Source: Sedimenticola sp. (GTDB lineage Bacteria > Pseudomonadota > Gammaproteobacteria > Chromatiales > Chromatiaceae). From it: DNA of 38,395 nucleotides. The stretch's first letter is position 1; every line of letters begins with the position of its first letter. Below are positions 8,730 to 29,210 of this stretch, piece by piece. The stretch is taken from contig JALSSX010000245.1 of NCBI GenBank assembly GCA_026984055.1, forward strand, positions 1-38,395, read 5' to 3'. The notes beneath the pieces are model-generated. The model was not told the DNA's origin, ran no database searches, and saw only the letters and a list, made by a program, of their open reading frames with translations. Made by a program: the position numbers and the translations under genes.

Positions 8730-9295
8730 TGACCGGTATCGAGAAGGACATGCGGCAGGTGCTCGATCGGGCTGACCGGCTGTTCGACCTCGGCGAGACC
8801 GAGGCAGCGATCTCTCGCATGGCTGGAGAGATTACCGAGGATCTGGCCGGTACCGACCCCATCGTGCTGGTGGTGATGAATGGCGGTCTGATCCCCGCCG
8901 GCCATCTGCTGACGCGCCTGGATTTCCCGTTGCGCCTTGATTACATCCATGCAACCCGTTACCGTGGACAGACCCGTGGTGGAACGATGGCTTGGCGAAA
9001 GCGTCACGAACAGCCGCTGGAGGGTCGCACGGTGCTGATCGTCGACGACATCCTTGACGAAGGCGTGACCCTGGCCGAGATCGCCTCCGTGTGCCGTGAG
9101 GAGCGTCCGGCGCGTTTGCTCACCGCCGTGCTGTGCCGCAAACGCCATGCGCGCCATAACGGCTTCCAATGCGACTATATTGGTCTGGAGGTCGATGACC
9201 GGTATGTCTTCGGTTATGGCATGGACTATAAAGGCTACTGGCGTAACGCACCGGGGATCTTTGCCCTGGCGGAAGCAGATCACGCGACCGGTTGA
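8729..9295 (+). CDS. hpt: Hypoxanthine-guanine phosphoribosyltransferase family protein
   Basis: PRPP-binding motif VLIVDDILDEGVTL; start overlaps the nagZ stop. Confidence 0.88.
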   Translation: MTGIEKDMRQVLDRADRLFDLGETEAAISRMAGEITEDLAGTDPIVLVVMNGGLIPAGHLLTRLDFPLRLDYIHATRYRGQTRGGTMAWRKRHEQPLEGRTVLIVDDILDEGVTLAEIASVCREERPARLLTAVLCRKRHARHNGFQCDYIGLEVDDRYVFGYGMDYKGYWRNAPGIFALAEADHATG

Positions 9296-9309
9296 GCATC
9301 CCTCACGAC

Positions 9310-9458
9310 TTAGCAGGCCGTTGAAAAATGGCATTTTTCTCGTCGCAAAGAGGAAATACGATTGCCGCTATGCTCACATATTCCATCACTGATCATGATC
9401 GAAAAGGGTGGAACATCCCTGTCCCACTCGGGTATCTCGATTTTTTGAGATAACCTTA
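9310..9458 (+). repeat. Multi-hairpin intergenic element, copy B (subfamily 2)
   Basis: TTAGCAGGCCGTTGAAAAATGG...GGGTGGAACATCCCTGTCCCACTC...GGGTATCTCGATTTTTTGAGAT; colinear with copy C. Confidence 0.8.
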
Positions 9459-16929: not shown

Positions 16930-17127
16930 CTAAAGTGGATCTCGAAAAATGCCTTCCATGGCATTTTTTTCGTCGCTAAGAGAAAATGCGATTTCCGCTT
17001 TGCTCATATTTTCAATCACTTATTGTGGTCGAAAAGGGTGGGACATCCCTGCCCCACTCGGGCATCTCGATTTTTCGAGATGCCCTGGCAGGCCGTTGAA
17101 AAATGCCATTTTTAAACGGCCTGCTAG
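16930..17127 (+). repeat. Multi-hairpin intergenic element, copy C (subfamily 2 plus an extra terminal hairpin)
   Basis: CGAAAAATGCC-TTCCAT-GGCATTTTTTTCG; GTGGGACATCCCTGCCCCAC; GGGCATCTCGA-TTTT-TCGAGATGCCC; then GCAGGCCGTTGAAAAATGCCATTTTTAAACGGCCTGCTAG. Confidence 0.85.
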
Positions 17128-27086: not shown

Positions 27087-27971
27087 TCATGCCGAATAGC
27101 GCCGGCCTATGGTCTCGCGTACCCGTACCCGGTCGCCGGGTCTCAGGTCATCGCGCCAGACGACACTGTCGGGCGGAAACAGCAGGATCACTGTTGAACC
27201 CATGTTGAAGCGGCCCATCTCTTCGCCGCGTTGCAGGCTGGGTGGCGCGGTGTCCCGATAGCGCCAATGAGTGTTTCGCAGACGCCGTGGGGTCACCGTG
27301 CCGGCCCACACGGTGTCGGTGCTGGAGACGAAGATCGCGCCGACCAGAATCGATGCCATCGGCCCGAAGTCGCTCCGGAACAGATTCACGACGCGCTCGT
27401 TGCGCGCGAACAGGCGTGGCAGCAGGCGGGTGGTGACGGTGTTCACGCTGAACAGCCGGCCGGGTACATGGATCATTTCCGCGAGCACGCCATCGCAGGG
27501 CATGTGCACGCGATGGTAGTCGCTGGGCGACAGGTAGATGGTGACGAAGCGGCCGTCGCGAAATGGCTCGGCCAGCGCGGTATTGCCACCCAGCAGTTCT
27601 TCCAGGGTGTAGGCCATGCCCTTGGCCTGGATCAACTCGCCGTCGCGGATGTCGCCAAGCGCGCTGACCATGCCGTCGGCCGGGCTGACGAGCTCGTCAG
27701 GGTCGTTGCTGAGCGGACGCGCATCGGGCTTCAGCGCGCGGGTGAACAAATGGTTGAAGCTGCGATAGTATGTTGGATCGGTTTCGACCGCTTGGTTCAG
27801 ATCGATGGCATGACGGCGCATGGCATATGTGATCAGGCGACGGCTGAACCATGGCCATTCGCAGCGCGCGATGCTGTGCATCAGGCGCGATAACAGATGT
27901 TGTGGCAGCAACCATTGCAGGATCACGAAGCCGCGATTCCTCCAGCCCAATGGGGGGGATGCTTGGCTCAC
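27087..27971 (-). CDS. psd: Phosphatidylserine decarboxylase
   Basis: SPADGMVSALG, SPSDYHRVHMPCDG, C-terminal FNMGSTVILLFP (GST self-cleavage motif). Confidence 0.96.
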   Translation of the reverse strand: MSQASPPLGWRNRGFVILQWLLPQHLLSRLMHSIARCEWPWFSRRLITYAMRRHAIDLNQAVETDPTYYRSFNHLFTRALKPDARPLSNDPDELVSPADGMVSALGDIRDGELIQAKGMAYTLEELLGGNTALAEPFRDGRFVTIYLSPSDYHRVHMPCDGVLAEMIHVPGRLFSVNTVTTRLLPRLFARNERVVNLFRSDFGPMASILVGAIFVSSTDTVWAGTVTPRRLRNTHWRYRDTAPPSLQRGEEMGRFNMGSTVILLFPPDSVVWRDDLRPGDRVRVRETIGRRYSA

Positions 27972-28453
27972 GGTTGGGTCTTGCGCACCGTGGCGTCGAA
28001 GAAGTTACAGATGCCGTTGTCCATGTGCAGAATCAGCGGCACTTTGTCGCCGGCCTTGAAGCGTTTCTCCGGATCGAACAGCATGATGTGCTTGCCGCCG
28101 GGTTCGAAACGGATTGAACCGCCAGGTGGAATCTCGACATCATCCAGATGGACCATGCGCGAGATGCCATTGTCCTCGACCGTGGCGTGCATCATGCTGG
28201 AACCGAATGCCGGGCTTGTCGCGGCGGTGATATGCACTGGCTTGTCGCTGTTGTTGTGAATGGTCAGATAAGCGGCGAGCACGCGTGCGTTCGGCGGCGC
28301 CTCGCGTATCCACGGACTCTCGATAGTGAGGATGTCGGCATGCCCGGCGACCGCAGCCAGGCTCAGCAGGCAAGCGGGCAGAAAATATCTAACAGGCCGT
28401 TGAAAAATAGCATCTTTCAACGGCCTGTGTGCGGTACAGGGAGGTACCGCCAT
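27968..28453 (-). CDS. PCuAC copper chaperone
   Basis: SPWIREAPPNARVLAAYLTIHNN...HATVEDNGISRMVHLDDVEIPPGGSIRFEPGGKHIMLFDP. Candidate starts are ATG 28453 or TTG 28420, both inside repeat copy D. Confidence 0.88.
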   Translation of the reverse strand: MAVPPCTAHRPLKDAIFQRPVRYFLPACLLSLAAVAGHADILTIESPWIREAPPNARVLAAYLTIHNNSDKPVHITAATSPAFGSSMMHATVEDNGISRMVHLDDVEIPPGGSIRFEPGGKHIMLFDPEKRFKAGDKVPLILHMDNGICNFFDATVRKTQP

Positions 28454-28557
28454 TTTCGATGACTGCAAGTCATTGAAAATAAAGGAGCCGGGGAATCGCA
28501 TTTTCCGGTTCCGTCGTTGAAAAAGTCCACGGAAGGACTTTTTTAACATCCTGCTAA
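28389..28557 (-). repeat. Multi-hairpin intergenic element, copy D (subfamily 1)
   Basis: Reverse complement TTAGCAGGATGTTAAAAAAGTCC...GCGGTACCTCCCTGTACCGC...GGCCGTTGAAAGATGCTATTTTTCAACGGCCTGTTAG is colinear with copy E. Confidence 0.88.
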
Positions 28558-29210
28558 AAAAAGCTGTCATGTGACCACTCCCATTGTTTGACGATCTTCT
28601 TGAAATCGGCGGCGATGGCCTTTGGATCATGCTTGCCCTTGAAGGCCGCGACGAAGTTGCCGTCTGGGTCGATCAGCGAGATATTTGCACTGTGCGCGAC
28701 ATCGTAGTTTTCGCCGCCGTTGGCGTCGTCGCGCAGATAGACGACGAACATCTGCTTCGCCAGTTTGGTCAGCTCCTCGTCGCTGCCGGTTGCGGCGAGA
28801 AATTCGGGGTTGAAGTAGCTGACGAATTCCTTCAACTGCTTCGGTGTATCGCGCTTGGGATCGACCGAGATGAACATGAACTCGGTATTGGCCTGTAGCT
28901 TGGGGTCGTCCGCCAGGCGGTTGTAGACGCGCGCCATGTCGGACAGCGCCATTGGGCAGATGTCCGGGCAATGGGTATAGCCGAAGAACACGAACGACCA
29001 GTGCCCCTTCAGGCTGTGCAGAGTGAACGGCTGGCCATTGAAATCGGTCAGCATGAACGGCTGGATGGCGATGGGCTTTGGCATCATCACCGCGCCGACA
29101 TCGCCGAGATCGGGCTTGGCGAAGTAGTGTCCGGCGAAATAACCGCCGATCAGCGCGACAGCGGCAACGAGAAAAAGCTTCAGGCGGTAGCCAAGGGTAC
29201 GTTTGATCAT
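28554..29210 (-). CDS. SCO1/SenC family copper chaperone
   Basis: FVFFGYTHCPDICPMALSDMARVY (CxxxC) and FISVDPKRDTPKQLKEFVSYF. Stop TAG lies at the end of repeat copy D. Confidence 0.93.
   Translation of the reverse strand: MIKRTLGYRLKLFLVAAVALIGGYFAGHYFAKPDLGDVGAVMMPKPIAIQPFMLTDFNGQPFTLHSLKGHWSFVFFGYTHCPDICPMALSDMARVYNRLADDPKLQANTEFMFISVDPKRDTPKQLKEFVSYFNPEFLAATGSDEELTKLAKQMFVVYLRDDANGGENYDVAHSANISLIDPDGNFVAAFKGKHDPKAIAADFKKIVKQWEWSHDSFF

Follow-up and report, generated by a model that had tools for sequence, protein, structure and literature searches.

When a repeat lies between two neighbouring genes, does it make their boundary, or was it inserted into a boundary that already existed? This question is raised by copy D of a palindromic repeat in the window, by which we mean the whole stretch of 38,395 nucleotides analysed from Sedimenticola sp. 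(contig JALSSX010000245.1). On its minus strand the gene order is a rhodanese-domain gene, sco1, PCuAC and psd (Pfam domains Rhodanese, SCO1-SenC 3.4e-42, PCuAC 5.8e-33 and PS_Dcarbxylase), and copy D separates sco1 from the PCuAC signal-peptide core, where the junction reads ...TGGTCACATGACAGCTTTTTTTAG[CAGG...CCTG]TTAGATATTTTC.... The first-pass annotation had proposed that the repeat supplies the sco1 stop codon as well as the PCuAC start and was exapted as a gene boundary. The span that it delimited, 28389-28557, is exactly the repeat plus both target-site duplicates (4+161+4 bp). We consider it probable that a MITE was inserted at the TTAG of the sco1 stop, the inherited PCuAC start being kept, the leader growing from 23 to 78 residues and the mature chaperone remaining unchanged. 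The main features are:

28554..29210, minus strand: sco1 (SCO1/SenC, PF02630, 3.4e-42), intact, stop TAG at 28556-28554; its end WSHDSFF* is homologous to WSHDNFF* of the relative G001
28554..28557, minus strand: left target-site duplication TTAG, seen in the sequence, which holds the sco1 stop TAG
28393..28553, minus strand: element copy D, MITE-like, palindromic, 161 bp, CAGG...CCTG, 94.4% identity to the consensus
28389..28392, minus strand: right target-site duplication TTAG, seen in the sequence
27968..28570, minus strand: PCuAC, 200 aa when read from the inherited ATG (PF04314, 5.8e-33; copper motif by inspection)

Regarding the repeat itself, the anatomy of copy D is MITE-like, with a YTAR target duplication. 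The element is small (exactly 161 bp in 33 of the 42 full copies and in 60 of the 77 distinct near-full copies of a larger sample), multi-copy and without a transposase gene. In the genome searched, a draft of 325 contigs, the repeat DNA gave 72 BLAST matches, around 40 near-full copies among them, and 335 first-look candidates, and the translated repeat gave 150 matches scored from 481 candidates; the genome copy number is roughly at least 150, and this abundance is far above chance. The ends CAGG...CCTG are common to the aligned copies, palindromes run all through the interior, and the arms TTGAAAAA/TTTTTCAA are found at both ends as terminal inverted repeats. YTAR flanks were found on the left in 34 of the 42 copies and on the right likewise in 34 of 42, and both flanks carry identical 4-mers in 46 of the 77 sampled copies, mostly YTAR, the duplication expected of an IS5-derived element. 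Therefore, the TAG that had been assigned to the element end belongs to the target-site duplication TTAG. Relatives of the repeat are present in other genomes of the family; searches of phages and plasmids found none, Rfam gave no match to the element and a consensus scan gave no internal promoter. An autonomous partner was sought in the genome with PF01609, PF13586 and PF05598, which gave only fragments without the element ends; no transposase linked to the element was found there. One of the six element frames is usually open (27/42 copies), the other five being open in 0, 3, 0, 0 and 1 of 42.

Two ideas about this family were rejected. One was that the element is drawn to stop codons in particular: the 42 full copies have 84 ends, of which 13 adjoin the stop of a frame of at least 80 codons, compared with 11% of the YTAR sites in the same flanks, and thus the adjacency to stop codons is due to the YTAR target motif. 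The other was a conserved coding peptide, because the synonymous share of the changes between species is close to 0.28, as expected under neutrality, one copy excepted.

We also noted a second, related repeat type (GGGATCTCGAAAAATTCC...) at window positions 9294-9456 and 16937-17127 and at L045 and L053, which has the internal plan of the element and different arms, and which at times adjoins or fuses with the first type. Many element copies abut another repeat with GGATTTCTCACCGGGTCGC or its reverse complement (L039, L042, L051, L052, L057, L058, L068, L070), and this suggests nested repeat families in the genome. At G031:C13:3411-3551 a diverged element copy with one stop lies within an open frame of 1190 codons.

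The main comparator, and the single one at genus level, was G001, a same-genus Sedimenticola sp. MAG (JALVEB010000060.1), in which sco1 and PCuAC adjoin without the repeat (...TGGTCCCATGACAACTTCTTCTAGCCGC...). There a TAG ends sco1 (WSHDNFF*), and PCuAC (MTTSSSRLLALGLLTLCSLAARA-DIL) starts at an ATG that precedes the end of this stop by 17 nt. Since this empty site has the homologous ATG and TAG, the sco1 stop and the PCuAC start are older than the repeat. When the window flanks are joined at one TTAG they give MTAFFRYFLPACLLSLAAVAGHA-DIL, with 23 leader residues, the leader length of G001, and no indels relative to it. Such a comparison with a repeat-free relative had been called for in the first-pass annotation, and it divides the claims made there. 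The sco1 3' end is indeed CAT GAC AGC TTT TTT TAG, and the n-region adjoining the signal core is repeat-derived; however, a repeat-supplied sco1 stop is ruled out by the empty site, because G001 ends sco1 in the same place (WSHDNFF-TAG) and the TAG of the window is part of the duplicated target. The two genes are frequently neighbours in more distant relatives too, and the gap from the sco1 stop to mature PCuAC is 46-135 nt in most of them versus 217 nt in the window. Two sources were uninformative: the search for PCuAC in G002 (same genus, 62% complete) gave no matches, and the Sedimenticola sp. contig L101 breaks inside sco1.

A run of seven T is found at the sco1/PCuAC overlap (window 28556-28562, minus strand) and is absent from G001; slippage there could join the reading frames of the two genes.

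As had been described, the PCuAC frame is open through the repeat, and the element frame used is the one that is usually open. The element plus one duplicate amount to 165 bp, that is 55 codons, stop-free in this frame, and the 200 aa of PCuAC consist of 23 inherited leader residues, split by 55 insertion-derived residues (78 in total), and 122 mature residues. ATG, GTG and TTG are all missing between the repeat and the core RYFLPACLL, for ATG again in agreement with the earlier description. Because there is no start codon downstream of the repeat, any product with the signal core must carry repeat-encoded residues, and the n-region next to the core is repeat-derived whatever start is used. 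Nevertheless, an exapted gene boundary is unneeded, as the ancestral ATG...TAG overlap is preserved and the repeat has been inserted in frame within the second gene. PCuAC is a single-copy gene in the genome, its copper motif M-H-x10-M-x21-H-x-M is intact by inspection, and its mature part is 84% identical to that of G001 (dN 0.12, dS 1.2), most of this divergence perhaps predating the insertion. The rare changes in copy D are 4 synonymous and 2 nonsynonymous versus 29 and 84 in other copies (one-sided Fisher p 0.05, marginal). Because this synonymous excess is marginal and is repeated neither in the two parallel copies described below nor in most interspecific comparisons, which show the neutral ratio, we discounted it as evidence of selection on the translation of the insert.

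The course of events that we favour is the following. A non-autonomous, YTAR-preferring MITE landed in the TTAG holding the sco1 stop, 17 nt inside the overlapping PCuAC gene, and sco1 was left unharmed because the target duplication rebuilt its stop; the insertion, its duplication, the open frame and the loss of downstream starts are all visible in the sequences, and G001 shows the empty site. The 165 bp added to PCuAC would be read as 55 stop-free codons, and translation from ATG 28570 would yield a precursor in which the signal peptide of 23 residues has become one of 78, its n-region long and positively charged ahead of the old hydrophobic core and the cleavage site. This long leader would still be exported and cleaved, thus leaving the mature chaperone as it was. 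Against this reading, long n-regions occur in autotransporters but one of 60 residues is unusual in a small periplasmic protein.

The start codon is the point where the readings differ, and the features that bear on it are:

28568..28570, minus strand: inherited PCuAC start ATG, 17 nt before the element, overlapping the sco1 end, with GGGAG upstream; same position as the G001 start
28547..28549, minus strand: in-frame ATG at the left element edge, 4 nt after the sco1 stop, a possible re-initiation start; no Shine-Dalgarno (SD) match in the sequence
28499..28501, minus strand: in-frame ATG within the element, ranked second among the internal candidates (anti-SD duplex -3.5 kcal/mol, opening cost 12.5 kcal/mol)
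28392..28428, minus strand: 17-bp hairpin at the right end of the element, which buries TTG 28420 in the computed structure

The first-pass annotation had listed ATG 28453 and TTG 28420 as starts; both are inside the repeat, as it said, but ATG 28570, 28549 and 28501 had been left out. A further ATG at 28630 is also in the PCuAC frame but lies deep within sco1. With an anti-SD duplex of -6.9 kcal/mol, ATG 28570 is the best of 7 candidates (the others range from +2.2 to -4.2), and 4.5% of random stretches reach -7. Its opening cost is also the lowest, 10.4 kcal/mol versus 22.9 for ATG 28453 and 32.0 for TTG 28420; all these figures are model calculations, and ribosomes arriving from upstream would melt the hairpins. 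On these predictions PCuAC most likely still begins at the inherited, coupled ATG 28570, whereas TTG 28420, with an unpaired probability of 0.00 in the ensemble, the worst accessibility of all candidates and a weak SD match, appears to be the least likely start.

The best rival to the inherited start is termination followed by re-initiation at ATG 28549 (TAR-CAGG-ATG), whereby the element would supply the start and the whole n-region of a 71-aa leader. Coupled restart after termination is a known mechanism, and the position of this ATG 4 nt past the stop is a consequence of the left end CAGGATG of the element at every stop-codon insertion. However, it has no SD match (+0.7 kcal/mol), it is costlier to open than ATG 28570, and the inherited start 21 nt upstream of it is intact, so we consider this reading unlikely. 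Still less probable is a start deeper in the element, at ATG 28501, ATG 28453 or TTG 28420, which would give a leader of 28-55 residues with an n-region wholly derived from the repeat, as was first proposed. The leader from the TTG start (MKDAIFQRPVRYFLPACLLSLAAVAGHA) would have ordinary signal-peptide proportions and the SD of ATG 28501 is modest, but hairpins bury the TTG and ATG 28453, whose SD matches are weak or none, and the inherited start outdoes the deeper ones on SD and accessibility alike.

The in-frame insertion into a leader that overlaps an upstream stop has parallels in the same genome (G000). Among 77 near-full copies sampled we picked 40 loci for long open frames through the element, and hence the number of leader insertions is a minimum and gives no rate. 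We looked for copies whose left duplicate holds the stop of a long upstream frame and which have a start overlapping that frame and located 8-17 nt ahead of the element, an element frame that is open, at least 140 more codons downstream and no starts before the leader core, and three were found: copy D, C114 (L178) and C264 (L181). In the second (G000:C114:9924-10085) the element separates, in frame, the start of gspK (T2SSK by profile) from its prepilin leader, at the gspJ stop; gspJ ends ...VAVPSV*, gspK reads GTGTCTAA[element]CTAAGCGG... and the joined flanks give MSKRRRQGGLALPLVLWV. In the third (G000:C264:24933-25094) it is in frame in the leader of a secreted protein, at the CTAG stop of an lpxH-like gene, and the joined flanks give MTFSPSVSGSSSIKLLVACVAMLLTCHGKAADG; the gspJ and LpxH names rest on position and sequence alone. 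At both loci G001 lacks the element and shows start and stop overlapping, its gspK being MSEFRRQQGLALPLVLW and its counterpart of the secreted protein MSLSRRELLQCLGG..., 50% identical. As in Rickettsia palindromic elements, the insertions are in frame relative to repeat-free orthologs, those of G001 for PCuAC and gspK and a more distant G001 ortholog for the third gene. Against the reading that we prefer, the SD matches of the two parallel cases at their inherited starts are weak (-3.0 and -1.7).

A similar, independent case was found in G032, of the same family and another genus, where an unrelated multi-copy palindromic repeat is in frame in the PCuAC leader (L034, C64:12651-12804). This repeat is a MITE of 146 bp, flanked by TTAA/TTAA, with around 40 copies scored and a net addition of 150 bp. 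A strong SD of -7.4 kcal/mol precedes the insert and the joined flanks give MMKIHLLISTMMTLLLFLGMSTAAMADT, but there is also a possible start downstream of the repeat (MMTLLLF..., SD -3.2), and the case, judged from the G032 sequence itself, is less strict than the three of G000.

Other open frames through the element, with products named from their sequences, were rejected as leader insertions because they have their own ATG downstream: L061 thioredoxin-like, L048 DNA ligase-like, L174 ABC transporter-like, L183 LexA-like, and the pilin-like L186 and L188. The open frames through element copies that we read in G001 and G031 were no gene fusions.

That the insertion crippled PCuAC, its long leader or hairpins blocking expression or export of what would be a recent pseudogene, is very improbable: the intergenic structure is very stable (z -6.6) and the hairpin 28428-28392 is terminator-like, but the only PCuAC copy of the genome keeps its frame open and its copper motif intact, copy D has 9 differences from the consensus, and is therefore not a brand new insertion, yet no stop or indel, and all three leaders with in-frame copies would need to be dead.

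Taking the extended leaders together, we tentatively suggest that export-leader n-regions overlapping an upstream stop may be a general safe harbour for YTAR-targeting MITEs, where the stop would be rebuilt, the leader would gain around 50 residues and export would still work, and that unrelated MITEs may have repeatedly made long signal peptides (PCuAC in two genera, gspK and the secreted protein). This suggests a simple survival rule for in-frame MITEs, namely a target motif containing a stop, an upstream stop that restores itself and a leader n-region tolerant of length. With at least 3 such natural fusions in a single genome, and their repeat-free counterparts in a relative, these loci bear on the maximum n-region length of Sec or prepilin leaders. 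They are also a warning for annotation, since the starts called for genes of this kind, such as TTG 28420, are probably wrong.

In the open-access literature we did not find described the combination of a stop-containing target, a duplication restoring the stop and an extended export leader of the next gene, at three loci. In-frame fusion of MITEs with genes is itself known, above all from the Rickettsia palindromic elements (RPE) and also from QMITEs and intragenic ERIC (PMC10969869, PMC5896051). The 4-bp YTAR duplication is shared with the IS5 group, whose target is YTAR (PMC10359306), and its derived MITEs, although no matching transposase was found in this genome. The QMITEs of Coxiella alter or extend proteins in frame, e.g. 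at the enhC C-terminus (PMC5896051), whereas here the insertion is N-terminal, in a signal peptide, and the upstream stop codon is kept intact. The very long PCuAC leader resembles the extended signal peptides of autotransporters, which are exceptionally long and handled by Sec (PMC2805444); however, PCuAC is no autotransporter and its extension comes from a transposable element. The likeness to RPE is one of behaviour only: these are palindromes of ~150 bp found inserted in frame in protein genes that are unrelated to one another, to which they contribute a peptide encoded by the repeat (PMC10969869), and the family of copy D is likewise palindromic and inserts in frame. Unlike in RPE, its one frame is open mostly by default and interspecific changes appear near neutral, and every in-frame case found here concerns an export leader, at a junction where stop and start overlap and with a clear YTAR duplication.
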